Source: Trinickia caryophylli
GTDB taxonomy: Bacteria; Pseudomonadota; Gammaproteobacteria; Burkholderiales; Burkholderiaceae
DNA: 64,000 nucleotides
Direction: 5' to 3'
Assembly (NCBI RefSeq): GCF_034424545.1
Contig: NZ_CP139970.1
Span: 1,612,001 to 1,676,000, forward strand
The notes under the pieces were generated by a model. It was not told where the DNA came from. It made no database searches and saw nothing but the letters and a program-made list of their open reading frames with translations. A program made the position numbers and the translations under genes. Below, piece by piece: positions 2,975 to 24,539 of this stretch (positions are counted from its first letter, which is position 1; each line of letters starts with the position of its first letter).

Positions 2975-3029
2975 TGTGCCCGCCGCAAAGCGCGGGCGCC
3001 ACCCGCTCGCTCTCATTCGCCCCTTGCCG

Positions 3030-4052
3030 ATGAGCTCACCCGTATCGCCGATGCGGCGCCGGCTGTTGCAGGCCTGCGCGGCCATTCCTCTTTTGCCGCT
3101 GGCCGGCTGCAAGCATTCGCCGGTAACGGGCGGCAGCTTCATCCAGCTGTGGCTCGCGCATCTGGCGTGGCCTCGGGAGAAGTGGCAAAGCCGGCTCGCG
3201 GCCACCCGCGCGCTCGGATGCGACGAAATCTTCGTGCAGTGGGTCGGCGTCGAAGGCGAGCGAGACGCCGCATGGGCGGCACCTGACACCCTGCTTCGGC
3301 TGATCCTCGACGAGAGCGACGCGCTCGGCATGGGCGTGCATCTGGGCCTGACCTACGACGAGCGCTGGTGGACCGCCATCGCCGCGGCCGACGACGCTAC
3401 GGTCGCGGGCTTCCTGAACGAAACCGGCGCGCGGGCGCGCACCGGCATGTCGAACGCGCCGTGGGTTTCGCACAGTGCGTTCCGCGGCTGGTATATCCCC
3501 TATGAGCTCGAGCAGTACAGTTGGGCCTCGCCCGTGCGCCTCGACATGCTTTCGAACTGGCTGAGCGGGCTGTCGACGGCGGCCATCGGGTCATGCGGGC
3601 ACGAGCCCACGATCTCGACCTATCGAAGCGCGCTGCCCTCGAACAATACGCTCGCCGACATGTGGAGCACGCTGCTCGATCGCGTCGACATCCATCCGAT
3701 GATCCAGGACGGTGCCGGCGTTGCCGGCCTCGAGAATTATCGCGGACTGCAGCCGCTGCACGACATGCTCGTCGAGCGTCGGGCCCGGTTCGATCTGATT
3801 CTCGAATTGTTCGAGCAGTTGCCGCCCGCTCGAAGCGGCACCGGGTTCAGCGCGAAAACGGCGCCGTACTCGCGCGTCGAGGCGCAATGGGACATCGCGC
3901 GCGACTACGGCGCACAACGTGTCGTCGCTTTCGCCATCGATCCCTGGGTGCTCGACGATACGCCGGAAGCCGAGGCGCTGAGGCAGCGGTGGCTGAGCGC
4001 ACTCGGCGACGGCAGCCGGCGTGCCGAGCCGTCTACAGGCACTTCCCGATGA
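3030..4052 (+). CDS. DUF4434 lipoprotein, probable envelope TIM-barrel protein
   Basis: A 340-residue protein with a basic, hydrophobic leader MRRRLLQACAAIPLLPLAGC ending in a lipobox (LAGC), so it is predicted to be a periplasm-facing lipoprotein. The body matches the DUF4434 pattern: FIQLWLAHLAWPREKWQSRL, then GCDEIFVQWVG and YIPYELEQYSW, which resemble strands of a glycosidase-like TIM barrel. The ATG at 3030 was chosen over the GTG at 2976; ATG 3051 is also possible and would put the arginines next to the start. Its 3' end overlaps the end of the convergent acyl-CoA dehydrogenase gene by 20 bp. DUF4434 genes occur next to nfrAB-type polysaccharide loci (ybcH of E. coli, from memory), which fits the large operon on the opposite strand. 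A hydrolase role is inference. Confidence 0.72.
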   Translation: MSSPVSPMRRRLLQACAAIPLLPLAGCKHSPVTGGSFIQLWLAHLAWPREKWQSRLAATRALGCDEIFVQWVGVEGERDAAWAAPDTLLRLILDESDALGMGVHLGLTYDERWWTAIAAADDATVAGFLNETGARARTGMSNAPWVSHSAFRGWYIPYELEQYSWASPVRLDMLSNWLSGLSTAAIGSCGHEPTISTYRSALPSNNTLADMWSTLLDRVDIHPMIQDGAGVAGLENYRGLQPLHDMLVERRARFDLILELFEQLPPARSGTGFSAKTAPYSRVEAQWDIARDYGAQRVVAFAIDPWVLDDTPEAEALRQRWLSALGDGSRRAEPSTGTSR

Positions 4053-5160
4053 TCTCGCGCAGAATCTCGCTCGTCCCGCCGAAGATGCGCAGCGCGCGCG
4101 CATCGGCCCATGCACGACCGATGCCGTACTCGGCCATGTAGCCGTAGCCTCCGTGGAGCTGCAGGAGATCGTCGAGCACGGTGCCTTGCAGCTCCGTCGC
4201 ATTGAGCTTCGCCATCGCGGCCGTCACCGCATCGAGCTCGCCCGCCATATGGCGGTCCAGGCATTGATCGAGGAAGGCCCGCAGCATCGTGCTTTTCGCG
4301 AGCGCATCGGCCAACTTGAAGCGCGTGTTCTGATAATCGAGCACGCGGCGCCCGAACGTCTTGCGTTGTCCCGCATACGAGATCGCGGCCTCGAGCATGC
4401 CCTCGAGCGAGGCCGCCGCGCGCAATGCGATGGCCAGCCGCTCCTGGGGCAACTCTCGCATGACGTATTCGAACGCGGCATTCTCCTCGCCGAGAAGACA
4501 ATCGGCGGGCAGGCGGACGTCGTCGAAGAAAAGCTCGCACGTGTCCTGACAATGCTGCCCGATCTTCGCAAGCGCCGGTCCCTTCGAAAAGCCGGGGGTG
4601 CGGGCCTCGACGACGAAGAGCGACATGCCGCGCGCGCCAAGCTCCGGCGCGGTGCTGGCGAGCACCACGACCAGATCCGCGTTGACGCCGTTCGTAATGA
4701 ACGTCTTCTGGCCGTTGAGCCGGTATTCGCCGCCATCCCGGCGCGCGTGCGTGCGGATGGCCTTCAGGTCGCTGCCGGCCCCCGGCTCGGTCATCGCCAC
4801 CGCGCCGATCGCCTCGCCGCAAGCCATCGCGGGCAGCCACCTCGCCCGTTGCGCGGCGGTGCCTAAATGCCAGATGTACGGCGCCACCATGTCGGAATGA
4901 ATCGAAAAGCCGATGCCGAGACAATTCGCCCTGGCCAACGCCTCGATGACGACGGCTGCATGGATGAAGTCGCCGCCCTGCCCATAGGGCTCGGGCAGCG
5001 CGCAATTGAGCAGACCGCTCGCCCCCGCCCTGCGCCATAGCGACTTGGGCGTAATGCCGTCGCGCTCCCAGCTCCCGTAAGCGGGCAGTATCTCCTTGTC
5101 GACGAATCGCGCCACCTGATCGCGAAACTGGAGGTGATCGTCCCGGAATATCGTACGCAT
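4033..5160 (-). CDS. acyl-CoA dehydrogenase family flavoprotein
   Basis: A 375-residue acyl-CoA dehydrogenase with the FAD/substrate motif AMTEPGAGSD, the segment TFITNGVNAD, the QRKTFG helix and the C-terminal GGTSEILREIIG. At the position of the medium-chain enzyme's catalytic glutamate it has glycine (FGGTSEI), as in the long-chain/isovaleryl subgroup, where the base lies in an internal helix. The start MRTIFRDDH at 5160 is the family start; the open frame extends upstream without homology. It begins 53 bp after the stop of the AlgF-like gene on the same strand, so it may be the last gene of the polysaccharide operon, where it could act on an acyl-carrier-bound substrate. Equally, it may be an unrelated fatty-acid or terpene catabolic enzyme paired with the AtuA genes. 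Confidence 0.88.
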   Translation of the reverse strand: MRTIFRDDHLQFRDQVARFVDKEILPAYGSWERDGITPKSLWRRAGASGLLNCALPEPYGQGGDFIHAAVVIEALARANCLGIGFSIHSDMVAPYIWHLGTAAQRARWLPAMACGEAIGAVAMTEPGAGSDLKAIRTHARRDGGEYRLNGQKTFITNGVNADLVVVLASTAPELGARGMSLFVVEARTPGFSKGPALAKIGQHCQDTCELFFDDVRLPADCLLGEENAAFEYVMRELPQERLAIALRAAASLEGMLEAAISYAGQRKTFGRRVLDYQNTRFKLADALAKSTMLRAFLDQCLDRHMAGELDAVTAAMAKLNATELQGTVLDDLLQLHGGYGYMAEYGIGRAWADARALRIFGGTSEILREIIGKCL

Positions 5161-5213
5161 GCGTGGTTCTCGTTGATGGCGGTCATCCGCCGCCGGGCTA
5201 TGACCGAATCCGT

Positions 5214-5909
5214 TCATTGCCGGTAAGGATCGACCTCGCTCAGTTGGCCACGCAGCACCGGCGCGGCGGCGGACCCTGTCAGGAAGAGGCTGTAGTGATC
5301 GCCCGGCTGAAGCGCCGGGAGTTTGTAAGTTGCCGATTGCGACGCACCGCACGACGCCGACAACGCCGCGGCGACGGGACGGATGCCGCGCCCGGCCGCA
5401 CTGTATGCCGCAACGCTCGGAAAAAGCGTCGGGCCGCCGGCACCGGCCACGTCAAGCCGTCCTTCGCACCCTTGCACGAGGCTGTAAAAGCGCAAGTCCG
5501 CCTTCAGCGCATCCTGGGCGGCGCCGGTGTCGTCGATGGCCTGCAGCGACCGATGATCGCCTTCGCGCTTCGCCACGAGCGTGGTGAATGTATCCGGCGC
5601 CACTTGCCGCTTGAACACCTTGCCATCGAGCACCACGCTGAAGGGCAAATTTGCGCGGACGATGGCATAGGTGCTCGCCATTCTTTCGCCGGCCAGCGTC
5701 TGCGCCGGGCCGTCGGCAATCCGCACGCGCAGCGGGGCATCGCCGGGATTGACGACGCGCACGAACGAAGACCCGGCCGGCGGACGGGCCGCGTAGAGTT
5801 GAGCGAACGCCCCTTCGGCGCGCGCCGCGCTCATGCTCGCCGTCAGCGCGATGCCGACGGCCCAGGCGACGAATCGCACAACAGAACGACGACGCAATAC
5901 GCGAATCAT
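5214..5909 (-). CDS. AlgF-like periplasmic polysaccharide O-acetylation protein
   Basis: A 231-residue protein with a signal peptide (hydrophobic stretch about residues 12-28, cleavage near ARAEG). The mature N-terminus, with LYAARPPAGSSFVRVVNPGD, is the recognisable start of the AlgF family, the periplasmic partner of AlgI, AlgJ and AlgX in alginate acetylation. AlgF has no known catalytic activity and is thought to relay or organise the acetyl transfer machinery. Its ATG overlaps the stop of the upstream AMP ligase (ATGA), so it belongs to the same operon as the MBOAT and SGNH genes upstream. Divergence from true AlgF is considerable, and no alginate polymerase is present, so the polymer modified here is not alginate. 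Confidence 0.78.
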   Translation of the reverse strand: MIRVLRRRSVVRFVAWAVGIALTASMSAARAEGAFAQLYAARPPAGSSFVRVVNPGDAPLRVRIADGPAQTLAGERMASTYAIVRANLPFSVVLDGKVFKRQVAPDTFTTLVAKREGDHRSLQAIDDTGAAQDALKADLRFYSLVQGCEGRLDVAGAGGPTLFPSVAAYSAAGRGIRPVAAALSASCGASQSATYKLPALQPGDHYSLFLTGSAAAPVLRGQLSEVDPYRQ

Positions 5910-7381
5910 TGGACGGGCTCCGAAGAAGAACGCAGGCGGGCGGCCAGATACATCCGCGCCAGTTGCGGACGGTCGGCCTTGTCGGTTTGGGTGAGCGGAA
6001 AGCCGTGGCAGACGATCAGCTCGGATGGAACCATGTACGACGGCAGCCGGCGCCCAAGCTCGGCGCGCCAGCCCGCAAGCGACGGCGGCGGCGGCAAAAG
6101 CCCGGGCGGGCCGGGCTCGTCGGGATCGACGAAACCGACGATACGTACGGCCTGCCCATCGGCTCGCCGCAGCGCAACGGCCGCACCGGCGCGCACGCCG
6201 GGCAACGCCGCGAGCGCGACATCGATTTCCGCCAGCTCGATCCGGTATCCGTGCAATTTGATCTGATCGTCGCGACGCCCTCTGAACGTGACGAGCCCGT
6301 TTTCGTCAATGTGCCCCAGATCGCCGGTGCGGTAGCCGCGCTTGCCGCCGCGCACGAACATGCGCGTGTCGTTCAGATCGGCCCGGTTCAAGTACCCGCG
6401 CATGACATGGTTGCCCGCGATACATATTTCGCCGTCGTCGATGAAGACGTCGGCATAGGGCTTCGCCCTGCCGATCGGAAACGGCGAAGGCGCGGCCGCC
6501 CGCAGCGCCGGATCGATCTCGACCCACGTGGTGGAACACGTTGCCTCGGTCGGACCGTACGAATTGACGATGCGGGCATCGGGAAACCGGGCCCAGAGCG
6601 CTTCGGCCACAGCGGGCGTCAACGATTCGGCACCGAACACGAATACGCGCAAATCGGGCAGATGCGCGCGGTCGAATGCCGGATCGAGCAATTGCTGACG
6701 CACGAACGACGGCGTGCAGGCCCAGATACTCACCTTCGCACGGGCGAGATAGTCGGCGAAGGCCGCGCGGTCCGCGATCGCCTCACGCGGGCACAGCGCA
6801 CAGACACCACCCGTTGCCAACGCACCGACCCAATTGAAGAGCGAGAAGTCGAAGCTGAACAGCATCTGGTCCATGAAGACGGGCGCATCGCCCAATGCGA
6901 GGCAATCGCGAATCCATGCGGCAAAGAGGGTGAGACTCTCGCGCCCGATCTGCACGCCTTTCGGATCTCCCGTGCTGCCCGACGTGAACATGACGTAGGC
7001 AACGTCCTTCTCCGCAAGCGGTGCGGCCCTCACCCCGGTGTCGACGAAGGCTCGGGCCTGCGCGTCGTAGCGCAGTCCCGCGCGCACGAGCTCGGTAATG
7101 CGCGCCACGCGCTCGGCCGGATTGATGACGTCGACAGGCACGAACGGCACACCGCTCGCGAGGCAGCCCAACATGGCCACGAGAAAAGCGGGCTCCTTGT
7201 GCCCCGTGATGACGAGGGGGACATCGCGCCGCACGCCCGCACGTTGCGCGTCGTCGGCCCACTGCCGCACAGCCGTGCGCAGCGAGGACCAGCGCATGGA
7301 CGCCGACGGGCCGACGACCGCGACGCGCTCCTGCGCCGTCTGCGAATCGACGAATTCGAAGCGCTCGAAATCGAAATGCAT
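5906..7381 (-). CDS. AMP-forming amino-acid ligase, DltA-like / stand-alone adenylation domain
   Basis: A 491-residue ANL-superfamily enzyme. Visible core motifs are A3 YVMFTSGSTGDPKGV (residues 129-143), A4 with FDFS (aspartate 178, the residue that binds the alpha-amino group in amino-acid-activating members), A5 SYGPTEAT (274-281), A7 YRTGDLG, A8 GRRDDQIKLHGYRIELAEID and the C-terminal catalytic lysine in TDKADR (K468). Length and architecture fit a stand-alone DltA-type ligase that charges a carrier protein. The carrier gene lies 63 bp upstream on the same strand. The enzyme therefore probably activates an amino acid with ATP and loads it on that carrier for transfer to the polysaccharide. 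Which amino acid is not decidable by eye. Confidence 0.87.
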   Translation of the reverse strand: MHFDFERFEFVDSQTAQERVAVVGPSASMRWSSLRTAVRQWADDAQRAGVRRDVPLVITGHKEPAFLVAMLGCLASGVPFVPVDVINPAERVARITELVRAGLRYDAQARAFVDTGVRAAPLAEKDVAYVMFTSGSTGDPKGVQIGRESLTLFAAWIRDCLALGDAPVFMDQMLFSFDFSLFNWVGALATGGVCALCPREAIADRAAFADYLARAKVSIWACTPSFVRQQLLDPAFDRAHLPDLRVFVFGAESLTPAVAEALWARFPDARIVNSYGPTEATCSTTWVEIDPALRAAAPSPFPIGRAKPYADVFIDDGEICIAGNHVMRGYLNRADLNDTRMFVRGGKRGYRTGDLGHIDENGLVTFRGRRDDQIKLHGYRIELAEIDVALAALPGVRAGAAVALRRADGQAVRIVGFVDPDEPGPPGLLPPPPSLAGWRAELGRRLPSYMVPSELIVCHGFPLTQTDKADRPQLARMYLAARLRSSSEPVQ

Positions 7382-7444
7382 GAATCACTCCGCACAATGA
7401 TCGGCCGCTCGCGCGGCATCCGGCATCCGGCCCGCGGCCCGCAC

Positions 7445-7678
7445 TCAACGGCTCGACGCGATGTATTGCGCGAGCGTACGAACCGACTCGAGATGCACGT
7501 CGATTTCGGTGGGCGGAATCTTGACGCCGAATTCGCGCTCGACCGCAAGCGTCACGTCGACGGCCGAAAGCGAGTCGATCAATCCCGAGTCGATGAGCAT
7601 CGTATCGGCATCGACGCCGGTCAAAACGATCTCTTCGATCAATTGCGCAACGCGCGTTTCGATTTCGTTCACAGGCAT
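7445..7678 (-). CDS. acyl carrier protein, DltC-like
   Basis: A 77-residue acidic helical protein with the phosphopantetheine attachment motif LIDSGLIDSLS; serine 36 of DSL is the expected modified residue. The second half, VEREFGVKIPPTEID, resembles DltC-type carriers. The start MPVNE at 7678 is preceded by CGGAG at a good spacing; an in-frame TTG further upstream is less likely. It lies between the MBOAT gene (18 bp upstream) and the adenylating ligase, which is presumably its loading enzyme. The set ligase, carrier and MBOAT parallels dltA-dltC-dltB, where the carrier-bound aminoacyl group is handed to the membrane transferase. Confidence 0.86.
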   Translation of the reverse strand: MPVNEIETRVAQLIEEIVLTGVDADTMLIDSGLIDSLSAVDVTLAVEREFGVKIPPTEIDVHLESVRTLAQYIASSR

Positions 7679-7696
7679 GGCAATACTCCGTTGCAA

Positions 7697-9298
7697 TCAA
7701 AACTGGAAATAGAGGAAGCGCGCTTCCTTGTGCAGGTTGGCGATGCACAGGAGCAGCAGCGCGAGCGTGGCCATCAGCCACGGTGTATTGGCCCGCCACC
7801 GCATGAACGGCGGCGATGCCTCCTGCGCCTTGAAAAGTGCGGGCGAGTGCGCACCCAATATCTGATGCGCGTTCGGCGCGAACCATGCGATACCGAGCAA
7901 CACGGCGATCCGCAGCGCCTCGAGGTGATGGCCTATCAGCAAGCGCCAGGCATCGCCCGGTTGCAGCCCGCTCAGGGATGGAAACACCGCAGCGGTTTCG
8001 ACGCCATGCAGTCCGAGCATCCCCTCGATCAGCCGCCAGGCGTCGTGCACGCCATTCGCACGGAAAAAGGCCTGTGCCACGAGCACGGCCGCGAACGTCA
8101 GCGCGACGGACAGTACATGCATGGCCATGCCGCGCGCAGGCGCGCTCGCAGGCGGCCTGCGGCCGGCATGCGGCCGGCGGCTCGCCACGAAAATGCGCCA
8201 GAAATGATTGACCGAAAGATAACCCGCGTGCAGCAGGCCGAATACCAGGTATTGAACGCCGGCTCCATGCCAGATGCCCGCGAGGCTCATCGTGAAGACG
8301 GTCGGCACGACGATCGTCGCCGCGAATCCGCCCGGCGAGCGCGCCGCGCCCGAGCCCGCGGGCAGGCCGCGGCGCTCCCTCGCACGGGAAATGACCATCG
8401 CGAGCGGGTAATACAGATACGCGGTGAGATAACGCGTCAGCGTGATGTGCCAGCGCGCCCAGAAATCAATGATGCTGCCGGCCTTGTACGGCGAATTGAA
8501 GTTCAGCGGGAAGCGCACGCCGAACATCTTCGCGAGCCCCAGCGCCATATCCGAATAGCCGGAGAAATCGAAGTACAACTGCAGCGCATAGGCCACGCTC
8601 GTGCCCCACGCGGCCCACAAACCCAACTGTCCCGGGTCGGCGAACCCCGCATCGGCGTAGGACGCGACGCCATCCGCGAGCAGCACTTTTTTCGCGAGAC
8701 CGATCGCGAAAAGCGCGCAGCCTACCGAGAGGTTCTCCGCGCGGAAGCGGTAGGTCTCGCACTGTGCGAACTGCGGCATCATCTCCCGATGGTGCAGAAT
8801 CGGACCGGCGACGAGATGCGGGAAGAACGTGACGAACAGGACGTAGCTGAGCAGGCTGCGCTCTTTCACGATGCCCGAGCGGCAATCGAGCAGATAGCCG
8901 ATCTGCGTAAACGTGAAAAAGGAAATCCCGAGCGGGAGAATCGGTGTGTCGGGTGCCGCGTGCGCGAAGCCGAGGCCGGCGAGAAAGTTGAAAAGCGCCG
9001 CGACATACTTGTAGTGGAGCAGCACGGCCAGATCGGCGGCAATGCTCGCGCCGACAACGAAACCTTGCCATCGAGGGTGGCCCTCGCACCGCATGACGAT
9101 CCGGCTCGCGGCGAAGTTGAACGCGATCGATGCGGCGAGCAGCGCCACGAACTGCGGATTCCACCAGCCATAGAACGCGAACGACATCAGGCAGAGCCAG
9201 AGTGCCGCAAGCCGCCGGTCGAGCCTGGCTGCGGCATAGTGCCCGGCCAGCGCAACCGGCAAGAAGAGAAACAGGAAGAGATAGGAGTTGAACAACAT
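7697..9298 (-). CDS. MBOAT membrane O-acyltransferase, AlgI/DltB-like
   Basis: A 533-residue polytopic membrane protein of the MBOAT superfamily, starting MLFNSYLFLFLFLPVALAGH as AlgI does. The diagnostic segments are present: FWARWHITLTRYLTAYLYYPL and WHGAGVQYLVFGLLHAGYL, the latter with the conserved catalytic histidine. AlgI-type proteins move acetyl groups across the inner membrane for transfer to periplasmic polysaccharide; DltB-type relatives do the same for D-alanine from a carrier protein. Here the gene is followed by a carrier protein and its ligase, so the donor could be an aminoacyl-carrier instead of, or in addition to, acetyl. It starts 14 bp after the stop of the upstream SGNH gene. 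Confidence 0.9.
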   Translation of the reverse strand: MLFNSYLFLFLFLPVALAGHYAAARLDRRLAALWLCLMSFAFYGWWNPQFVALLAASIAFNFAASRIVMRCEGHPRWQGFVVGASIAADLAVLLHYKYVAALFNFLAGLGFAHAAPDTPILPLGISFFTFTQIGYLLDCRSGIVKERSLLSYVLFVTFFPHLVAGPILHHREMMPQFAQCETYRFRAENLSVGCALFAIGLAKKVLLADGVASYADAGFADPGQLGLWAAWGTSVAYALQLYFDFSGYSDMALGLAKMFGVRFPLNFNSPYKAGSIIDFWARWHITLTRYLTAYLYYPLAMVISRARERRGLPAGSGAARSPGGFAATIVVPTVFTMSLAGIWHGAGVQYLVFGLLHAGYLSVNHFWRIFVASRRPHAGRRPPASAPARGMAMHVLSVALTFAAVLVAQAFFRANGVHDAWRLIEGMLGLHGVETAAVFPSLSGLQPGDAWRLLIGHHLEALRIAVLLGIAWFAPNAHQILGAHSPALFKAQEASPPFMRWRANTPWLMATLALLLLCIANLHKEARFLYFQF

Positions 9299-9312
9299 GG
9301 GCAAGGATCCGT

Positions 9313-11471: not shown

Positions 11472-11544
11472 ACAGCCCATTCCTCCTCGTATGGCAACGC
11501 GGGTGGCCCGCGCATCGCACTGCGCGAACACGCGGCCCCGCCGG

Positions 11545-14397
11545 TCAATAAGAAAACGTCACCGTCATGAACAGACCCTTGCTCCGGTCCGCCTGCCCGC
11601 CGCCGACGTTGAAGCGGTACTGCGTCGACCAATCGACACGGGAACGCGGCCCGTCGTAGTGGCCTTCGCGGAACCAGTAGCGAAAATTCAAACCGAGCCC
11701 CGCGCCCATCGACCATGTCTTGCCGTTGCCTTGAAGCGCGATCGATCCATCGCCGGCGCCGGGCACATCCACACGATCGTTCTCGTCGACGATGTCGCCA
11801 CCCACGACGACGTAAGGAAAGATCACGAGCCGATCGCTGACGGCATCGATGCGATAACTGCGGCCAAGCCGGACTTCATAGGCGGCGAAGAGTTGCTGGC
11901 GCTTGTAGCGGCCCGAGGTGCGATAGCGCGTTTCGCCCGTCGCGGTATCGGTCAGCCAGAACGCCGTCGGCATGTCCTGCCAGGAGTAGCCTCCTTGCAT
12001 ATAGGCTTCGGTCGTGAACCAGCTCGGCTGGTCCAGGCGCAGGCCCGTGCCCGTGTAATAGCCGTAGGTCACGTAGGCAAGCCAGCCGCCATTGCCGGCG
12101 CGCGAGCTGTAGTGCGCGGTCATCGGCGCGCTCGTCGCCGCCGCCGCGGGGTTGGCCGGATCGCGCCCGCTCAGCCGGCATCGCAGCGCGGGCGACTCCG
12201 GCGTGAGCGTGCCCGAGCGCGTGGCCGAGCCGAGCATGAACTGGCGCTCGAGGCCGAACGTCAGCCCGAGCTCCGTCGACGGCGTGAAGCGCAGGCCAAG
12301 TGCGCCCGTCGTCGTCGGCACGCCAGCGAGCCCGCTGTTGGTACTGCCGCCGATGTTCGTCAGCGCCCCCGTGCACGGATCGGCGATGCGCTGATCGGGC
12401 GTCGCGCCGTCGCTGTTGGCGAGCGTGTCCGAGAGGCGGCCGTAAAGCTCGAACACGCGCGTGGCCGTATTGAGAACGTTGGACGGGCGCCAGAACACCT
12501 CGGCCGTGCCGAACACGGCATCGCCGGGCACCGTGATGGGCGCGCCGCCCAACCCGGCGCCGGCCGGGCGCGCGCCGCGGTATCCCACCGATACTGTCGC
12601 GCCCCACTCGCGAGACAACCCGGTGGCCGTGCTGCGCGTGTCGAAGCGCTGCTGCGGCGTCATGGGCAGCGCACCCTCGTCGTTGAGATCGATTGCGCGC
12701 CTGAAAGCGTCCACGGCGCCGCGCCGGTCGCCCGCACCGGCCAGCGCATAGGCCTCGTCGAGGATCACCGCCGCAGGCGCATGGCCGCTCGCGCGCGCCG
12801 CGGCGAAGTCGTCCGCGGCCTCCCTGAAACGGCCGCGCCGCTGGTTCAGATAGCCGCGCTGCCTCAAGAGCAGCGCATCGCCGGGATGGGCGGCCACGTC
12901 CGCGTCGAGCCGCTGCGCAGCCTCCGCTTGCTGCGCTGGCGTGCCGGACGAGAGCGTCGTCGTCAGCAAGCGCTGCATCGCCGGGTTCGAGGGGTCGCGC
13001 TGCACGGCTTTGCGCGCCTCCTGCACGGCTTGCGGGTAATCCTTGCGGGAATACGCGGCGATCGCGCGCGCCGCCGGCGCTGTCAGGTCCGACGAGTCGT
13101 ACGGCAGCAGTTCGCACGAGGTGCCGTAGGGCGTATCGCGGCAATCCTGGATCGGCGCCGGGTAGTCATCGAGCGCGAGCGACTCGGGCACCCGGCCGCC
13201 TTCCTTCGCGCGACGCATGCGCACGGCCACCGCCGGATCCTTCGCGTCGAGCGGTTGCAGCAGCGCCTGCGCGCGCCCGATGTCGCCGGCCGCCAGCGCC
13301 GCGTCCGCCGCGATCAGGCGTGCGTGGCGCTTTTGCGCGTCGTCGAGCCAATCCTGCCGAAGCACGGCGTCGAAGTCCTCGTTCGCGAGCGCGGTCTTCA
13401 TCTGACGCTGGCGCAAGTAGCCGCGCATGACACGCGCAACCGTATTGCCGTCGTCCTGGTGCAAGGCATCGGTCGCCGCGTCCTCCGCCTCGGCCAGCTG
13501 TTCGTCGAGCATCAGCGAGGTGACGAGCAGCAACCGGTAACTTTCGACGTCCGCGGCGAGCGCCACCGCCTCGCGCGCGAACGGCACGGCGGTGGAAGCG
13601 TCGGGCGCCTGGTAGCTCTTGGCGGCCGGGTCCTGCGCCATCCGGCGGCGAAGCGCCTGCTCGCGTGCGACGAGATCGCTCCGGTTGGGCGCGCCGAGTG
13701 CGAGCGCCGCATGGGCCGCCTGCACGGCGGCGTCGAGCTTGCCTTGCGCTTCGAGCGCCGCCACCCACAGCAACGCCCACGCTCCGCGCGACGGGTCCGT
13801 TCGAAACGCGGTTTCCGCATCGCTCGCCGCCGCCCCGTACTCGCTGCGGTTGTACTCGGCATAGGCCTGCGTCGCGATCGGAAACGCCTTGCGGTAGGCC
13901 TCGCTGTTCGCATCGCCGCCCGCACCCAGCGTTCCCGTCAGATTGGCTTTCGCGGCCGTCAATTCCGGCGCGCGCATCCCGGCGGCAAGCGCCGCATCGA
14001 CGGCACGATCGGCATCGGCGATGCGCCCAGCCTTTTGCAGCGCATAGATGAGCAGCAGCCGCAAGCGCAGCGAGTCGGGACGCAGCCGGATAGCCGCTTG
14101 CGCCTGGTCGGCCGCCGACGCATAGCGCCCGGCGTTGTAGCTTGCATAGGCGAGGTGGGCGAGACGCCATGCCGGCCCGGTGAGCGGGGCCTCGCCCCTC
14201 ACCGGCGCCGGCGGCGCCGATGCGGCCGGCGTGGAGGAAGCGGCGGAGCCGGCGTCGGCCGCTGCCGCGAGCGGCGTGACGGCGAGCGCGAGCGAAGCGC
14301 CGCAGGCGATCGCGCTCAGCCGCATGCGGCGGAACGACACCGCGCACATGCGCAAAGAGGGATCGCGCTGGCGCGAAAGGAGATGGCGCCGGCTCAT
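11545..14397 (-). CDS. nfrA: NfrA-type outer-membrane exopolysaccharide export protein
   Basis: A 950-residue exported protein. A signal sequence runs to about ALAVTPLAAAADA (a shorter start at the internal MRLSAIAC is possible). Residues about 60-600 are helical TPR-like repeats (for example AYASYNAGRYASAADQAQAA and AYAEYNRSEYGAAASDAETA). The C-terminal third is a beta-barrel ending in VTFSY, the aromatic terminus of an outer-membrane protein. This is the organisation of the phage N4 adsorption protein NfrA, now understood as the secretion channel for a surface glycan. Its ATG overlaps the stop of the nfrB-like gene (ATGA). It is the expected exporter of the polymer made by the upstream synthase. 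Confidence 0.87.
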   Translation of the reverse strand: MSRRHLLSRQRDPSLRMCAVSFRRMRLSAIACGASLALAVTPLAAAADAGSAASSTPAASAPPAPVRGEAPLTGPAWRLAHLAYASYNAGRYASAADQAQAAIRLRPDSLRLRLLLIYALQKAGRIADADRAVDAALAAGMRAPELTAAKANLTGTLGAGGDANSEAYRKAFPIATQAYAEYNRSEYGAAASDAETAFRTDPSRGAWALLWVAALEAQGKLDAAVQAAHAALALGAPNRSDLVAREQALRRRMAQDPAAKSYQAPDASTAVPFAREAVALAADVESYRLLLVTSLMLDEQLAEAEDAATDALHQDDGNTVARVMRGYLRQRQMKTALANEDFDAVLRQDWLDDAQKRHARLIAADAALAAGDIGRAQALLQPLDAKDPAVAVRMRRAKEGGRVPESLALDDYPAPIQDCRDTPYGTSCELLPYDSSDLTAPAARAIAAYSRKDYPQAVQEARKAVQRDPSNPAMQRLLTTTLSSGTPAQQAEAAQRLDADVAAHPGDALLLRQRGYLNQRRGRFREAADDFAAARASGHAPAAVILDEAYALAGAGDRRGAVDAFRRAIDLNDEGALPMTPQQRFDTRSTATGLSREWGATVSVGYRGARPAGAGLGGAPITVPGDAVFGTAEVFWRPSNVLNTATRVFELYGRLSDTLANSDGATPDQRIADPCTGALTNIGGSTNSGLAGVPTTTGALGLRFTPSTELGLTFGLERQFMLGSATRSGTLTPESPALRCRLSGRDPANPAAAATSAPMTAHYSSRAGNGGWLAYVTYGYYTGTGLRLDQPSWFTTEAYMQGGYSWQDMPTAFWLTDTATGETRYRTSGRYKRQQLFAAYEVRLGRSYRIDAVSDRLVIFPYVVVGGDIVDENDRVDVPGAGDGSIALQGNGKTWSMGAGLGLNFRYWFREGHYDGPRSRVDWSTQYRFNVGGGQADRSKGLFMTVTFSY

Positions 14398-16565
14398 ATC
14401 GCGGCAGGCAGGCCGCTCAGACGGCGCTGCTCCTGGATGACATGGGAGAGGGCCTCGCGCGAGATCACGCCGCGCGCCACCATGTACTCGCCGATGCGAC
14501 CATGCCGGTCGGGGCGGTAATCGGTCAACGCGGCGTCGAACGCATGCCGTTTCACGTATCCGTGTTCGATCAACATATCGCCGATGAGCGGAACGCCGCG
14601 GCCGCCGGCTCCGGCCTCGGGTGCGCCGCTGCCGTGGGCGTCCGACGTGCGCACCGCCACGCCGCCGCGCAGATGGCGCAGGCCTGCGGCAATCTCGCCC
14701 TCGCGCACGACGTGCAGCGCGACCGGCTGGCCCAACTGCGTTTCCAACGAGGCGATCGCGGCATCGCCAACCGGGCTCGCGGCGAGCACGATCGCATGGC
14801 CGGCCGGGCCCTCGCCGCCGGGCAGCACGCGGTAGCGAACGACCGTGTCGAGCGGCAGCCGTGCGGCGTGACGATCGAGCGCGCTCAGATCGAGCGCGCC
14901 GCGCGGAAGATCGGCCTGGAACGCGATCGCCTCGGCCAGCGTTTCTTCGTCGAGCCATCCCTTCGCCATCAGCACCCGGCCAAGCGGCGCCTCGCGCGCA
15001 TACCCCTCGTTCAGGGCGCTCTCGAGCTGGCTGGCATCGATCGCCTGCCAGGAGAGCAGCAGCTCGCCAAGGCGTTGGCGGCGCTCGGTCAGGCCGTCGG
15101 CCGAGGGAAAATCGTGCATCGTCTTGTCCCACGCGAGCCGCTTGCCGGTCACGAGGTGCACGGCGAAGAGCCGCCACGCGCGCGCGACGGCCATGAAGTT
15201 CACGAAGTTGGCGATGATCATGCGCGGCAGGCACAACAGACCGTGCTCCCAGCCGTAGAGCCGCGTGACGAAATAGACGCGCTGAGCGGCGCGCAGTGCG
15301 AGCGCGCAGCCGTTGGCCCACAGCAGCCACTGGAACCAGTGCGCATCCGCGAGCGGAGACGCCGGAAACGCTGGGGTGAGACCGAGCGCCTGCGCGAGTT
15401 CGAATGCAACGAACTGGATGACGAGCAGGTACGCGAGCATGCCGATGAACGACGTCACCACGCCCTTGCGATCGCGCATCAGCAAGTAGCGATTCGCGAG
15501 CGACCCCGAAAACCCTGTCTGCCGCCACCCCTGCATGCCGATGCCGAGCGTCCAGCGCGCACGCTGGCGATACGCCGTGCGCAGCGTGTCGGGGAAGAAT
15601 TCGCGCACGCAAAGCGGCATCGTCAGCGTGAATTCGCGCTCGGGACCGAGGCCAAACCACGACTTGCGACGGGTCGAAAAGGTCACGGGAAAGCGCGCGA
15701 AAATCGACTGCATTCCCATCGTTCCGAGGCGGTTGCCGACGTCGTAATCCTCGGTGAGGCTTTCGGTATTGAACGGCTGATTGCCGGTTTCGCCGATGAG
15801 CGCGGCGAGCGCGCGACGCGAGAAGCAGGTGCCGACGCCGGCCGACGGCACCGTCCCCGCGAGGCTCTCGCGCACTACGAGATCCTTCGCATGCCACTCG
15901 GCGAACTCGTCCATGTACGTGCCGGCCACGAGTTCGAACCAATGGCGTTCGAGCGAGGCGACGGGAAGCTGGATCATGTCCTTGCGCGGCAGCAGGTAGT
16001 TGAAGAACTTGAGCTCGAGCGGATGGAGCACGTCCTCGCTGTCGTGCAGCACCACGCCCGCGAACTCGATCTCGCTTTCGCGCTCGTATTTCAGAATGCC
16101 CTGAACGACCCAGTTCAGGCAGTCGGCCTTGCAGGTCGGTCCATCGTGCGGCACCTCGATGCGGCACAGCTGCCGGTAGCGCCGGCGCATGCGCTCGACC
16201 TCGGCGATCGTCCGCGCATCGTTGCGGTAAGTGCCCACGAAAACGACGTAGTTGCGATAGTCCAGCACGCGCACGAGGTCTTCGAGCATCGCCGCAATCA
16301 CATCGTGCTCGAGCCACGCGGGCACCATGATGGCGATCGGCTGCTCGGCACGCACGTGCAATTGCTCCGCCGTAAGCGGCTTGTGTCGCCGCTTTACGGT
16401 GAAACGCCGGTACGCCTCGCGCGACCAGAACCAGAGATCGATGAACAGATCGTCGAGGCTCGAGACGAAGATGAGCACGGCCACGACGCCGGCCATCGTC
16501 TCGAGGCCCGAGTAATAGCGGCTCATCGCGTAGCCGCCGTACCACTGCAGCGCGGCAAGATCCAT
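14394..16565 (-). CDS. nfrB: NfrB-type processive glycosyltransferase with C-terminal MshEN-like c-di-GMP modules
   Basis: A 723-residue inner-membrane family-2 glycosyltransferase. N-terminal membrane segments precede a GT2 domain with HDSED (residues 174-178), TEDYDVGNRL (271-280) and the polymerase signature QRARW (334-338). Further membrane helices span about 365-465. The soluble C-terminus has two MshEN-like regions: about 497-555 (RLGELLLSWQAID and LGRVLMAKGWLDEETL) and about 655-720 (IGDMLIEHGYVKRHAF and IGEYMVARGVISREAL). MshEN repeats bind c-di-GMP, so synthesis is probably gated by that messenger. The first half-motif has W where glycine is usual. In E. coli, NfrB makes an N-acetylmannosamine-containing glycan from the WecB product; wecB is the first gene of this operon. 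Confidence 0.9.
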   Translation of the reverse strand: MDLAALQWYGGYAMSRYYSGLETMAGVVAVLIFVSSLDDLFIDLWFWSREAYRRFTVKRRHKPLTAEQLHVRAEQPIAIMVPAWLEHDVIAAMLEDLVRVLDYRNYVVFVGTYRNDARTIAEVERMRRRYRQLCRIEVPHDGPTCKADCLNWVVQGILKYERESEIEFAGVVLHDSEDVLHPLELKFFNYLLPRKDMIQLPVASLERHWFELVAGTYMDEFAEWHAKDLVVRESLAGTVPSAGVGTCFSRRALAALIGETGNQPFNTESLTEDYDVGNRLGTMGMQSIFARFPVTFSTRRKSWFGLGPEREFTLTMPLCVREFFPDTLRTAYRQRARWTLGIGMQGWRQTGFSGSLANRYLLMRDRKGVVTSFIGMLAYLLVIQFVAFELAQALGLTPAFPASPLADAHWFQWLLWANGCALALRAAQRVYFVTRLYGWEHGLLCLPRMIIANFVNFMAVARAWRLFAVHLVTGKRLAWDKTMHDFPSADGLTERRQRLGELLLSWQAIDASQLESALNEGYAREAPLGRVLMAKGWLDEETLAEAIAFQADLPRGALDLSALDRHAARLPLDTVVRYRVLPGGEGPAGHAIVLAASPVGDAAIASLETQLGQPVALHVVREGEIAAGLRHLRGGVAVRTSDAHGSGAPEAGAGGRGVPLIGDMLIEHGYVKRHAFDAALTDYRPDRHGRIGEYMVARGVISREALSHVIQEQRRLSGLPAAI

Positions 16566-18775
16566 CACGCCCGGTCCTTCGACTGATGGCGACGGCGAAC
16601 GAAGTGCGAGGCGAGCAGCAGCACGATCAGGCCCACGATCCCGCCCGCGACCATCCAAGGCCACCCAGCCCAGTCTCGATCGTCCGCGGCGGTGGCTGCC
16701 GTCGCGGGTTCGCCCGGGTGACGCGAATCGAAGAACTGCGCCGGAGCGTTCGCGGAGACGAGCGCCACGTCGCCGTGCACGAGTTGGAGCGCCGCCGGCA
16801 GTTGCGGCGCCTTCGCACCGAGCGTGCGATAGGCGATGCCTGCCGCGCCGTTCGCTTGCGCCACCTCGATGACGGCGAGGTTCGTCAGGCCGGATACGTC
16901 GGCGTAGGCGCGGCCCGAAGCATCGGTCAGCGTCAAACGGTCGGCCGACAGGCGTGCGCCCGACGTCTGGCCCGCAAGCGCAACGTCGGCTGCGAGGAAC
17001 GGGCCTGCCGGCGTGACCGGATCGGCGCCCGCTGCCACGGTCAACGTGGCGCGGGTGAGCGGCGCGCCCGCCACGCTCGCCAGCCGCGCCAGGCGCCGCA
17101 GTCCGGCCGGCGCATCGTCGAGATACGCCTGCGGCACGATCACGTTTGCTTGCCGCGCAAGGCGCGCGATGGTGCCGGTGAAGTCGTCGCCATCGGCGTT
17201 CACGCGCTCGAGCGTGAGATGGCTCGTGGGCAGTACCGCCACCGGGTACCCTTGGCCGCGCGGCTCGCAGCCGCCCTCCAGGCGCCGCTGGAAGACGACC
17301 CGCAGCGCGTTCACCGGTGCGAGCGCATAGCGGGGAACGTGCGCCGTGATGCGCTCGGGTTTGCCGTTTTCGGCGAGCATCCTGGAGGCGATCAGCACGT
17401 CGTTGAAGTAGACCGAGGCGATCTGGCCCGCGCCACGAGGCGTCGGCGCCGCCATCACGTCGAGCACCACGTCCCCGGGCAAGCGGCCGCCGGCCGCGAC
17501 GGCGGCAAGATCGAAGCTGGCCTCCCACACCGCGCGGGCGAGCACGTCGAGCGTGCGCGGCACGCCGCCGAGCGCCGACAACGAGACGCGTTCGCCGTGC
17601 GCATAAGGGGCTTCGTCGAGACGATGAACGACGTACCGGTCCGCGGCGCCGATCGGCCGCCACGCGCGCGAGAGCGCCTCGACCGAGACCGGATCGCCGA
17701 CGACGATCGCTGTTTGCCCCGGCAGCCGTGCGAGCCGCACCTCGCCGGGCGCGAGCGGGTTCACGATCGGCGCCAGCGAGCGAGCCCGCCATGAGTCGAA
17801 CGCCGCGGCCGCATCGGAGGATACGGCCGCGATCTGCGCGCGCAGCGCATCGAGTGCCTGCACCGTGGCGCGGCGCATGGCGTCGTCGGCAACGATCACG
17901 TCGGGTGCAAAGCCGCGCGGGGCGAGCGCGATCAGCGCGCCGACCTGCGCCGCATCGGCGAGGGTGGCCGAGCCGCCGTGCGCCAGTGCCGCGAATGCCG
18001 GTACCGCACGCAATGCGGCGGGCACGTCGATGCCGCTCACGTCAACGGCGTCGCCCACCGCCGGCCACGCGATCGTGGCCGGGGCGCGCCCTTCCCGTTC
18101 CATGAGCGCTTCGACGCGCCACGCGGTATCGAACGCCGGTGCCTGGACGCGCCGGCCCGAAACGGCGACCACGGGCGTGATCGGCAAGGTGCTCCAGGCG
18201 GTGCGCACATCGGCAATCGTCGCCGGATCGTAGCGATAGGTGAGTCGCGAGCCAGGTGCGACGCGCAGTACGTTGCCGACCGCCGTCTGATCGGTACAGA
18301 GCCGGTCGTCAATGACGGAAGACCATTGCAGCCCGACACGTACGAAACCGCTCGGCCGCGGCACCCCGGCAACGCCGATCGTGGCTGCGGCGTCGCCCTG
18401 CGGCTGCGTGAAGCCGCGCGACATTACGGGTACGCCGTCGAGCGAAACCAGCATGGTCGTGCGTCCGCCGTCGGCGCGCAGGTAGCTCCCATCCAGTTGG
18501 AGGCTTGCATCAGCGATCGATACGCCGGCCGGCACAGGCAGATAGAGTTCGCTGCGCGTATCGGGCGCGGAGAATACGATCGGCTCGCGAATGCCGAGAT
18601 CGGCGAGCGACACCGTTCGCGAGACCAGGCGCCCCTCGCCCAGGCGGGCAAACGCATCGGTCACACCGTCCTGTGCCGCCGCGGCCTGGCCGGTCGTGAA
18701 AAGAAATAGAGCCGGCGCCGTCAAGGCCGCCAGACGAAGAGGCGCCGCGAGGCGCGAAGCGATATCGAAAATCAC
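16565..18775 (-). CDS. BcsB-like periplasmic polysaccharide-synthesis protein
   Basis: A 736-residue protein starting at a GTG with AAGGA six bases ahead. It has a signal peptide (residues about 10-34), a long beta-rich periplasmic body and a single C-terminal membrane helix (WMVAGGIVGLIVLLLASHF) followed by a basic tail. This is the layout of BcsB, the cellulose-synthase partner that guides the glucan through the periplasm. Segments such as ELYLPVPAGVSIADASLQLD and GLQWSSVIDDRLCTD fit the family. Its stop overlaps the nfrB start by one base. There is no bcsA or bcsC here, so it most likely serves the NfrB synthase and not cellulose. Confidence 0.82.
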   Translation of the reverse strand: MIFDIASRLAAPLRLAALTAPALFLFTTGQAAAAQDGVTDAFARLGEGRLVSRTVSLADLGIREPIVFSAPDTRSELYLPVPAGVSIADASLQLDGSYLRADGGRTTMLVSLDGVPVMSRGFTQPQGDAAATIGVAGVPRPSGFVRVGLQWSSVIDDRLCTDQTAVGNVLRVAPGSRLTYRYDPATIADVRTAWSTLPITPVVAVSGRRVQAPAFDTAWRVEALMEREGRAPATIAWPAVGDAVDVSGIDVPAALRAVPAFAALAHGGSATLADAAQVGALIALAPRGFAPDVIVADDAMRRATVQALDALRAQIAAVSSDAAAAFDSWRARSLAPIVNPLAPGEVRLARLPGQTAIVVGDPVSVEALSRAWRPIGAADRYVVHRLDEAPYAHGERVSLSALGGVPRTLDVLARAVWEASFDLAAVAAGGRLPGDVVLDVMAAPTPRGAGQIASVYFNDVLIASRMLAENGKPERITAHVPRYALAPVNALRVVFQRRLEGGCEPRGQGYPVAVLPTSHLTLERVNADGDDFTGTIARLARQANVIVPQAYLDDAPAGLRRLARLASVAGAPLTRATLTVAAGADPVTPAGPFLAADVALAGQTSGARLSADRLTLTDASGRAYADVSGLTNLAVIEVAQANGAAGIAYRTLGAKAPQLPAALQLVHGDVALVSANAPAQFFDSRHPGEPATAATAADDRDWAGWPWMVAGGIVGLIVLLLASHFVRRRHQSKDRA

Positions 18776-18930
18776 GGCCGATCCTTGATCGAATACGCGA
18801 AAACTGAGTCGATGAACAACGGGAATCGAAAGCGCGGCCCGGCGCGTCGCATACCACGCCCCACTTGTGCGATCCCACTGCGGGAGCCCGCCCGCGAATG
18901 GCGCAGGCGCAATGTCGAACGCGATGCGCG

Positions 18931-20124
18931 CTAAGCGAGCGCCCCGACCGCGTCCGGCAGGCAGGACAGCTGCCGCGAGGCAGCGCTGCCCATGAACTCG
19001 CTGAACGGCATGCCCGCGATCGCGGCAGCAATGCGCTCGGACGCGCGTCCGTCGCCGTACGGGCTGATCGGCGCGCGTGGGGTGACGCCGGCGCGGATTT
19101 CCTCGAGCAGGACGCGCGCGGCGTAGACGATCGTTTCCCGGCGCGTGCCGACCAACTGCACCGCGCCCGCCGCGAGCGCCTCCGGACGCTCGGTGACTTC
19201 GCGCATGACGAGCACCGGCTTGCCGAGCGCGGGTGCCTCCTCCTGCACGCCGCCCGAATCCGTGAGCACGATCGACGCGCGCTGCATGAGCCGCACGAAG
19301 GGCAGATAGCCGAGCGGCTCGATCAAATGCACGTTGGGCGAATTGCCGACGAGCGCATGCACCGGCCCGCGAACGTTCGGGTTCAGATGGACCGGATAGA
19401 CGATCTGTACGCCGTCGCGCCGGGCGAGTTCGTCGAGCGCCTCGCAGATCGATGCGAGCCCCTCGCCGAAGCTCTCGCGCCGGTGCCCGGTCACGAGTAC
19501 GACAGGCTTCGTGTCGTCGATTTCGGGCAAAGCATTGTCGAGCGAGGCCCGCAAAGCGGCATCCGCGTCGATGCGCGCGACCGTTTGATAGAGCGCGTCG
19601 ATGACCGTGTTGCCCGTCACGACGATACGCCCCTGAAGCGCTTCGGCCCGCAGGTTGGCTCTCGCACTGGCGGTCGGCGCGAACATCAGATCGCTCACGG
19701 CATCGACTACGCGCCGGTTCATCTCCTCGGGCCACGGCCTGGCCATGTCGCCGGTGCGCAGCCCCGCCTCGACATGGCCGACGGGAATCCGGCGATGAAA
19801 CGCGGCAAGCGCTGCGGCACAAGCGGTGGTGGTATCGCCGTGCACGAGCACACGGTCCGGCTCCTCTTGCGCGAGCACGGCGTCGAACGCCGCAATGAGG
19901 CGCGAGGCCAGCTCGTTGAGCGACTGATTGCCCGTCATGAGGGCAAGGTCGTATCGCGGGACGATATCGAAGATATCGAGCGCCTGAGCCAGCATCGAGC
20001 GATGCTGGCCGCTTACGCAGACAACGGATTCGAGTTCCGGCGTCTGCGTGAGCGCCTTTACGACGGGAGCCATTTTGATCGCCTCCGGCCGAGTGCCGAA
20101 GACGGATAAAATCTTTTGTGCCAT
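18931..20124 (-). CDS. wecB: UDP-N-acetylglucosamine 2-epimerase (non-hydrolysing)
   Basis: A 397-residue cytosolic epimerase converting UDP-GlcNAc to UDP-ManNAc (EC 5.1.3.14). The family signatures FGTRPEAIKMAPVVKAL, VHGDTTT, HVEAGLRTGDM, LTDSGGVQEEAP and GTRRETIV are all visible. ATG 20124 is preferred over the GTG one codon upstream. It is the first gene of the polysaccharide operon, 155 bp before the BcsB-like gene. No ManNAc dehydrogenase (wecC) accompanies it, which suggests that UDP-ManNAc itself is the building block, as in the E. coli N4-receptor glycan. Confidence 0.93.
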   Translation of the reverse strand: MAQKILSVFGTRPEAIKMAPVVKALTQTPELESVVCVSGQHRSMLAQALDIFDIVPRYDLALMTGNQSLNELASRLIAAFDAVLAQEEPDRVLVHGDTTTACAAALAAFHRRIPVGHVEAGLRTGDMARPWPEEMNRRVVDAVSDLMFAPTASARANLRAEALQGRIVVTGNTVIDALYQTVARIDADAALRASLDNALPEIDDTKPVVLVTGHRRESFGEGLASICEALDELARRDGVQIVYPVHLNPNVRGPVHALVGNSPNVHLIEPLGYLPFVRLMQRASIVLTDSGGVQEEAPALGKPVLVMREVTERPEALAAGAVQLVGTRRETIVYAARVLLEEIRAGVTPRAPISPYGDGRASERIAAAIAGMPFSEFMGSAASRQLSCLPDAVGALA

Positions 20125-23923: not shown

Positions 23924-23989
23924 TCTTGCCTCACAGCCTACCTGCCCGAGCGCTTCGGATGCCGGTTGTTGGCGCCACGGACCTTCAAT

Positions 23990-24310: not shown

Positions 24311-24539
24311 CTTACCCCGAAGCCGTGCGCGGCCGACGAATGTAGCGGCTGCACGTGGGCACATGAGCTGTGACGCTTTGTTTTCCGGACGGATAGAGGG
24401 CAAGCGACAAGACCACGCACGGCTGTCGCGATAGGCGAAGCGGGCACTTTCGCGTCACGTGCGCGCAATCTGGATCGACAAAAGTTGGGCGTCCCGCGGG
24501 CCTCCCCCGCTTCCACGACGTACGCAACCAGGACTTCCC

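Follow-up and report, generated by a model that had tools for sequence, protein, structure and literature searches.

A putative carrier-fed decoration module in a predicted c-di-GMP-responsive Nfr exopolysaccharide locus of Trinickia caryophylli

The 64,000-nucleotide stretch of Trinickia caryophylli DNA analysed here as a whole (the window) contains an operon which we read, with a probability of about two in three, as encoding an Nfr exopolysaccharide system that responds to c-di-GMP and has a carrier-fed decoration module, the decorating group being an amino acid other than D-alanine. The operon is real. Its eleven genes lie on the minus strand from 20124 to 4033 in the order wecB, BcsB-like, nfrB, nfrA, SGNH1, SGNH2, MBOAT, carrier, DltA-like ligase, AlgF-like and acyl-CoA dehydrogenase, contain no internal stops and overlap by 4 nt at four junctions (nfrB/nfrA, SGNH1/SGNH2, ligase/algF and algF/dehydrogenase). 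A simple codon-position GC filter passes six of them as called, the remaining five sitting within longer open frames. Gene families were assigned by Pfam and NCBIfam profile scores, each judged against the cut-off of its model, with approximate ends in two Pfam queries (bcsB overlong at the start, SGNH2 41 aa short at the end). The initial annotation had placed the genes that it listed on one strand, mostly overlapping or closely spaced, and every one of them was recovered in collinear order; it had omitted the dehydrogenase and a convergent YbcH-family gene. Its overall reading of Nfr, Alg-type and Dlt-type modules as one locus stands, whereas it had not recognised that loading modules are swapped or that the locus is chimeric.

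The upstream genes comprise what characterises an Nfr system, namely a GT2-type NfrB with MshEN motifs, an NfrA exporter and a linked WecB. The wecB gene (18931..20124, minus strand; TIGR00236, 443.5 bits against a cut-off of 210) encodes a UDP-GlcNAc 2-epimerase, the predicted supplier of UDP-ManNAc, and is followed by a gene with a GTG start for a BcsB-like periplasmic protein (16565..18775, minus; PF03170, 29.7 bits, cut-off 21, a partial match to an overlong query). The synthase gene nfrB (14394..16565, minus; PRK15489, 1052 bits, cut-off 537) combines a GT2 domain carrying the TED and QxxRW motifs with c-di-GMP-binding MshEN motifs, and the MshEN-like repeats noticed initially are confirmed by two models above their cut-offs, MshEN (26.6 bits against 23.1) and the motif NF053729 (79.5 against 38, in two stretches). 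Homology thus speaks for the c-di-GMP gating that had been claimed; in the parts of PMC8669469 available, NfrB is described as binding c-di-GMP and depending on WecB. The polymer is probably ManNAc-based, its ManNAc content being itself a proposal in the accessible portions of PMC8669469 and PMC8669472. The product of nfrA (11545..14397, minus; PF13283, 91.3 bits, cut-off 25) is an exporter with TPR and outer-membrane NfrA_C regions and belongs to type A.

The genes that follow resemble an acyl-transfer relay. SGNH1 (10434..11480, minus; PF16822, 235 bits, cut-off 26.5) is AlgX-like, with a signal peptide recognised by eye and the residues D163, H165 and S254, while SGNH2 (9313..10437, minus; PF16822, 191 bits, cut-off 26.5, from a slightly short query) is AlgJ-like with an N-terminal hydrophobic anchor, also recognised by eye. 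The Ser, His and Asp residues reported at the outset as intact in both are so in the window and in all aligned relatives (44/44 loci for SGNH1, 43/43 for SGNH2). The MBOAT acyltransferase (7697..9298, minus; PF03062, 82.5 bits, cut-off 27) ends in the acyl-shuttle hexapeptide FLYFQF, and a PDB sequence search at E 0.001 returned DltB-type chains as sole matches. Both its His344 (the WHG His) and its Tyr530 (in FLYFQF) are conserved in 42 of 43 loci. A catalytic His, a C-terminal FXYXXF shuttle and an SGNH partner with Asp, His and Ser are thus all present, the shuttle motif and mechanism being those of the available text of PMC12148441. Next come a carrier protein for acyl or aminoacyl groups (7445..7678, minus; PF00550, 40.3 bits, cut-off 20.8), the Ser of whose DSL phosphopantetheine site is aligned in 30 of 30 rows, a DltA-like adenylating ligase (5906..7381, minus; PF00501, 184 bits, cut-off 29.9) and an AlgF-like periplasmic protein (5214..5909, minus; PF11182, 42.3 bits, cut-off 34.4). 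Against the curated Dlt models the window proteins all score below the cut-offs (DltA 328 against 476 bits, DltB 177.5 against 375, DltC 31 against 68).

From these genes and their residues we infer the reactions, the substrate, the polymer and its acylation. WecB would provide UDP-ManNAc, which NfrB would polymerise upon binding of c-di-GMP to its MshEN motifs, the chain leaving through the BcsB-like protein and NfrA. In the cytoplasm the ligase would adenylate an amino acid and then load it on to the carrier, from which the MBOAT could pass the acyl group across the membrane to the Tyr in the FLYFQF shuttle at its own C-terminus; this Tyr would in turn hand the group to the membrane-anchored SGNH2 and so to hydroxyls of the polymer, with participation of SGNH1 and AlgF. 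In half of the type A loci the dehydrogenase may oxidise the carrier-bound group.

The nature of the loaded group depends on the ligase pocket, whose specificity code, a guide only and with positions placed by motif, reads DFFAVGSCSK and is kept almost unchanged in all 20 type A loci, that of the window among them, across two classes. A conserved Asp178 supports the carrier-bound amino acid proposed initially, so that the carrier is probably loaded with an amino acid, but the D-alanine suggested by the early parallel with DltA and DltC is unlikely for this ligase. The accessible part of PMC8972799 gives Leu, Met and Cys as the residues of the D-Ala methyl cavity; in all 20 type A loci these become Phe, Phe and Gly, although the Cys position varies in canonical Gram-negative Dlt ligases too (Ile in L052, L166 and L168). 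Because all three cavity residues are replaced, D-Ala would be a poor candidate in the window, and because the Cys that clashes with L-Ala is Gly while two Phe fill the methyl cavity, we predict an L-amino acid or glycine. Ordinary D-alanylation, with the ligase loading D-Ala like DltA, the polymer becoming D-alanylated and the pocket changes reflecting neutral drift, is nonetheless suggested by the best NCBIfam models of the ligase, which are those of DltA (328 and 323 bits, yet under their cut-offs), by the retained Asp for the amino group and by the near-DltA pocket of type B relatives. The code of the latter, DLYVLCTVAK, agrees with Enterococcus DltA at 8 of 10 positions, and their cavity retains Leu and Cys with Met changed to Tyr. 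The window code, however, matches Enterococcus DltA at 2 of 10 positions, and since the divergent code is kept in every type A locus across two classes, neutral drift is disfavoured and we consider this explanation unlikely.

Less probable still is plain O-acetylation from acetyl-CoA as in alginate, the ligase and carrier then serving a separate pathway within the operon, for which one could invoke the interpretation of published nfr clusters as acetyltransferase loci (PMC8669469 and PMC8669472, in the parts available) and a type C locus (L044) of composition algF-MBOAT-SGNH. Type C has neither carrier nor ligase, and the MBOAT of L044 also ends in FLYFQF, but it is 33% identical to that of the window and occupies a very long branch apart from types A, B, D and F. 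Moreover, in types A and B ligase and carrier remain neighbours of the MBOAT, as do FkbH and carrier in type D. A third possibility, to which we give some limited credence although it too appears doubtful, is that the carrier bears, in place of the loaded amino acid, an oxidised or unsaturated product of the acyl-CoA dehydrogenase family flavoprotein (4033..5217, minus; PF00441/02770/02771), as in prolyl-carrier dehydrogenases. The gene overlaps algF, its product shows 70-80% conservation in 9 other type A loci, and the ERL glutamate, which we take to be the catalytic residue, is found in 10 of 10; a second, distant ACAD (24% identity) adjoins carrier and ligase in G465 and in two Pseudacidovorax loci, and a model for prolyl-carrier dehydrogenases gives 215 bits, short of its cut-off of 650. 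Yet the best PDB sequence match is a long-chain acyl-CoA dehydrogenase and the best NCBIfam model an acryloyl-CoA reductase, the latter below cut-off, and of the 20 type A loci 10 have the gene while the other 10, with the same pocket code, lack it, which excludes a universal need for it and makes it an optional tailoring gene. Of 13 family genomes of type A, 9 lack it in the locus and have no close orthologue at any other place.

The carrier-fed amino-acid reading is accompanied by a consistent pattern of co-inheritance. Among 299 family genomes this ligase occurs in 29, of which 28 also carry nfrB, with 8.3-10.0 kb between the two on the same contig in 25 (hypergeometric 8e-15, for genomes that are not independent). 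Chance adjacency is rejected by these counts (28/29 co-occurring, 25/29 no more than 10.1 kb apart on one contig), and the single exception without nfrB (locus L037, genome G186) is a decayed remnant. The full type A locus, bar the optional dehydrogenase, recurs in 12 more genomes of the family and in 2 of other families, and among the matches listed two Achromobacter, one Cupriavidus and two Stenotrophomonas are of type A as far as their sequence stretches reach. The proposal of Nfr, Alg-type and Dlt-type modules as one system is accordingly upheld by a conserved locus which, among the matches listed, is found again in other families and among the Gammaproteobacteria. Decoration is dispensable, since in 61 of the 94 genomes with nfrB these queries detect no decoration genes in the vicinity of nfrB, some stretches ending at contig ends (the survey leaves out one nfrB fragment, G245:C198).

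Sequence comparison further identifies the operon of the window as a chimera, in which wecB-bcsB-nfrB lie near type B and nfrA onwards near type A: its nfrB groups with type B in the tree, and its NfrA shows, over long alignments, 54-66% identity to family type A but 27-30% to type B. L164 was dropped from trees and counts as the same DNA as L023, and AU tests, which left out L013 (whose MBOAT frame is broken), L143 (the second G465 copy) and types C and E, were run after the identities had been seen, their p values being nominal. Nor is type A uniform: in the S. daejeonensis type A locus (L157) algF precedes SGNH1, the carrier is only 32% identical, and nfrA, algF and SGNH1 find their best matches in type D. 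In type D itself FkbH (TIGR01686, 314 bits, cut-off 147) takes the place of the ligase, beside an MBOAT 56% identical to that of the window. FkbH/carrier modules load glyceryl-type extender units. Type D relatives share with them an FkbH-domain protein and a carrier, but here the neighbour of FkbH is an MBOAT, within an nfr locus, and not a polyketide synthase; no FkbH is present in the window.

The loading part is exchanged among relatives, probably for one that adds a different group, which makes the gene set look like a modular decorating system. On a broader proposal, to which we would give even odds, Nfr loci are a family of polysaccharide decorating systems whose single MBOAT-SGNH relay, with its built-in acyl shuttle, is served by interchangeable carrier-loading cassettes (a D-Ala-like ligase, the second ligase of the window, a ligase with either distant dehydrogenase, or FkbH), swapped together with NfrA and re-coding surface chemistry. 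One relay would then seemingly accept at least three loading specificities, making testable which amino acids bacteria can put on a surface polymer, and why. Since Nfr-type glycans are E. coli phage receptors, a change of decoration by cassette swap is, speculatively, a plausible route of phage escape.

With E. coli nfrBA-ybcH/WecB, which makes the N4 phage receptor glycan NGR, the window shares the MshEN NfrB synthase, NfrA, WecB dependence and a YbcH-family gene, but the annotated E. coli nfr locus lacks BcsB-like, SGNH, MBOAT, carrier and ligase genes. With alginate AlgI/AlgJ/AlgF/AlgX it shares an MBOAT with fused shuttle, two ALGX-family SGNH proteins and an AlgF-like protein, adding a carrier and an adenylating ligase between MBOAT and algF; it thereby departs from the Alg/Pat/Wss type of MBOAT-SGNH system, defined by an acyl-CoA donor and no dedicated carrier. 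With the Dlt pathway (DltABCD-X) it has in common a carrier, an adenylating ligase and a DltB-related MBOAT, but the type A pocket is not D-Ala-like, the shuttle is fused to the MBOAT C-terminus in place of a separate DltX, and Pfam and NCBIfam give no DltD family match in the operon. Gram-negative dlt operons (L145, with DltD by Pfam, and L052, as annotated) have instead an MBOAT of 372-375 aa without the hexapeptide and a separate shuttle peptide ending in FQYQQF or FEYQKF, the same peptide occurring in L144. For teichoic acids, MBOAT decoration fed by a carrier has been described, whereas according to the available text of PMC12148441 (2025) no similar carrier exists in MBOAT/SGNH pathways outside Dlt, a rule which these Gram-negative exopolysaccharide loci break. 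Literature searches, with subscription journals mostly outside their scope, found no report joining at least four of MBOAT, DltA, AlgJ, acyl carrier protein and exopolysaccharide, nor AlgI together with DltA; among the matches listed, none on D-alanylation, exopolysaccharide, alginate, DltA and Burkholderia concerned this system by title, and those on FkbH with MBOAT were, in the parts available, natural-product work.

Convergent to the operon lies a DUF4434 lipoprotein-like gene (2976..4052, plus strand; PF14488, 182.6 bits) of the same Pfam family as E. coli YbcH. A modest predicted structure of its product gives TIM-barrel matches, and the protein possibly has a glycosidase-like fold, which, together with the family membership of YbcH, offers a testable role for an unexplained E. 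coli protein.

On the minus strand of the window eleven collinear genes (20124-4033) encode, in this order, WecB, a BcsB-like protein, NfrB, NfrA, an AlgX-like SGNH protein (SGNH1), an AlgJ-like one (SGNH2), an MBOAT membrane acyltransferase, a carrier protein, a DltA-like adenylating ligase, an AlgF-like protein and an acyl-CoA dehydrogenase. The initial annotation had read 4033..20124 as a hybrid Nfr-Alg-Dlt exopolysaccharide operon; the interval does span the dehydrogenase gene, which was left unnamed there. All eleven genes have a Pfam or NCBIfam match above cut-off, and ligase, MBOAT and carrier score below the curated DltA, DltB and DltC cut-offs. A TetR-family regulator gene (20735-21355) precedes wecB in the same orientation, and some undecorated nfr loci are also followed by weak TetR matches. 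A Mutator-family transposase fragment occupies 23896-24345 (PF00872, profile positions 222-328 of 379).

Is the association of ligase and Nfr genes a general one? Among 299 Burkholderiaceae genomes, NfrB (E below 1e-60) is present in 94 and the specific ligase in 29, the latter called at 443 bits or more, with the next listed matches, NRPS-like, at 174 or less. The co-occurrence proposed as a check in the initial annotation is borne out for ligase and nfrB in these genomes: nfrB is found in 28/29 ligase genomes, on the ligase's contig and 8.3-10.0 kb away in 25/29, and on a different contig in three (G136, G133, G038). The one genome in which no nfrB was found (G186) carries a decayed locus with the ligase (L037). 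Neighbourhoods were mapped for all listed nfrB places except one fragment, and by our reading 33/94 nfrB genomes carry a module of this kind, predicted to decorate the Nfr polymer. In the remaining 61 the queries matched no decoration module near nfrB, some of these stretches ending at contig ends. One locus (L039) retains a 54-aa ligase remnant after nfrA, and therefore loss of decoration genes by deletion has occurred. The window's own genome holds on its second replicon a second, plain cluster, wecB-nfrB-nfrA-YbcH-like (L116, C2:683444-703061), with an NfrB 45% identical to that of the window and no decoration genes found in the cluster.

Of these 33 decorated genomes, 13 carry type A (window included), 15 type B, one type C and four type D. 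Type A has the order nfrA-SGNH1-SGNH2-MBOAT-carrier-ligase-algF-(dehydrogenase) with a convergent DUF4434 gene, and type B nfrA-algF-SGNH1-SGNH2-MBOAT-carrier-ligase-YbcH-like; two type B loci are split over contigs, and that of G038 is also split and is without MBOAT and carrier in the mapped stretch. Type C (L044) consists of nfrA-algF-MBOAT-SGNH without carrier or ligase, a gene set compatible with acetylation. In type D (L047, L048, L078, L079) an FkbH protein (TIGR01686, 314 bits against a cut-off of 147 in L047, the one tested) and a carrier lie between SGNH2 and MBOAT; a small VOC-family gene, methylmalonyl-CoA epimerase-like below cut-off, follows the MBOAT (L047:18650-19057). A decoration module was looked for in type E and none was found. 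Outside the family, type F (G465 and two Pseudacidovorax) has SGNH and MBOAT genes resembling those of type A, together with a convergent block of ligase, carrier, dehydrogenase and DUF4434 genes.

Reports on nfr loci with WecB describe, in some species, additional alginate-type or periplasmic O-acetyltransferases (PMC8669469, PMC8669472). By word search the main texts of both lack 'ligase', that of PMC8669472 lacks 'carrier' and 'DltA', and that of PMC8669469 lacks 'acyl carrier' and 'Dlt'. Our literature search on the combination of Nfr with MBOAT/SGNH and carrier/ligase found no description.

The window locus is chimeric. Its NfrB clusters in the tree with seven rows of type B (SH-aLRT 99), while its MBOAT, on a long end branch flagged by the program, groups with types A and F (SH-aLRT 97); the AU test disfavours both a placement of the NfrB with types A/D/F and one of the MBOAT with type B (nominal p 0.028 and 0.014, respectively). 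The window nfrB shares 71-78% identity with type B and 61-64% with type A of the family; for nfrA the values are 27-30%, over long alignments, and 54-66%. This switch between nfrB and nfrA means that NfrA travels with the decoration genes. Less clear-cut is wecB, with 70-79% identity to type B and 58-62% to most of type A, yet 79% to one type A locus (L011). The C-terminal MshEN part is longer in type B and window NfrB than in types A, D and F of Burkholderiales, where NfrB measures 561-573 aa (714 aa in Stenotrophomonas), and the first MshEN motif pair is, by eye, retained in nearly all NfrB rows printed. The NfrB tree intersperses type D rows with those of type A, and the MBOAT tree sets them apart as a single clade (support 100), a discordance that is a second sign of cassette exchange. 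On a bolder reading of these loci, such exchange would serve to re-code the surface chemistry.

The FXYXXF acyl shuttle is fused to PatA-type MBOATs and resides on a separate peptide, DltX, in Dlt, and MBOAT/SGNH pathways other than Dlt are described as having no similar carrier (PMC12148441). The window MBOAT ends in FLYFQF. Across types A, B, C, D and F, 42/43 MBOAT loci have this shuttle together with the WHG histidine; the remaining one, L013, has a broken frame. Two gram-negative dlt operons (L052, L145), in contrast, encode a short MBOAT without shuttle and a separate peptide ending in FEYQKF or FQYQQF. Types A, B, D and F differ from the non-Dlt pathways so described in uniting fused shuttle and carrier.

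Ten ligase specificity positions were placed by motif, with DltA of an annotated Enterococcus dlt operon (L053) as reference and a numbering that we take to be that of GrsA. The Enterococcus code is DLMILCTVAK, and that of type B ligases DLYVLCTVAK (16/16, and also L222); all 20 type A ligases (window, L011-L022, L141, L142, L154-L158) have DFF(A/T)(V/L)GSCSK. In DltA, Leu, Met and Cys surround the D-alanyl methyl group, and Cys is described as excluding L-alanine through a clash (PMC8972799). By our mapping these are positions 236/239/301, at which type A has Phe/Phe/Gly. Because the amino-group-binding Asp is retained while the cavity residues are so changed, the type A substrate should be an amino acid other than D-alanine and, given the replacement of Cys by Gly, we infer that it would be an L-amino acid or glycine; the Ile at position 301 in some gram-negative Dlt ligases counsels caution in reading the Cys position.

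The dehydrogenase is an optional tailoring gene, since it is present in 10/20 type A loci, and in the nine type A genomes of the family that lack it no close orthologue exists at another place (best match 36%). Its ERL glutamate, presumably catalytic, is conserved in 10/10. The type F dehydrogenase is only 24% identical to that of the window, and the pairing of two such distant enzymes with carrier and ligase favours the carrier-bound group as their target.

Directly after the operon and convergent with it lies the DUF4434 gene (2976-4052, plus strand). E. coli YbcH belongs to the same Pfam family (E = 1.5e-69); its gene in K-12 (L051:1092-1982) is the unexplained third gene of the N4-receptor glycan operon nfrBA-ybcH. 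When window-type DUF4434 proteins are compared by profile with the YbcH/YbcH-like set, the probability is 98.6%; the YbcH-like genes tested from types B, C and E match DUF4434 only below cut-off. The predicted structure of the window protein is modest (mean pLDDT 68.8), and most of its listed Foldseek matches are glycosidases of TIM-barrel-like fold, with hexosaminidases and the C-terminal domain of PgaB among them (query TM-scores about 0.4-0.5). This YbcH homologue is predicted, with modest confidence, to be a glycosidase-like barrel.

Type A loci also occur in two other families of the order (L141, L142). Named records add two Achromobacter, two Stenotrophomonas (Gammaproteobacteria by NCBI) and Cupriavidus basilensis; in the last, DUF4434 lies on the operon strand and is not convergent, and both Stenotrophomonas carriers share just 31-32% identity with that of the window. 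The type A pocket is kept in S. daejeonensis (L157), yet there algF precedes SGNH1, and no dehydrogenase was found in the locus. The ligase profile matched 9/399 genomes sampled from the order, 2/369 from the class and 8/398 from the phylum, the window's genome included each time. Among the matches examined outside nfr loci (L144-L150), one lies in a canonical dlt operon (L145), one in a locus resembling it (L144) and one near a glycosyltransferase gene (L148). A Klebsiella electrica plasmid carries a small DltD-DltX-like-MBOAT-ligase-carrier operon between insertion sequences (L052:11585-15637), and related ligases are found on Enterobacter and Klebsiella plasmids.
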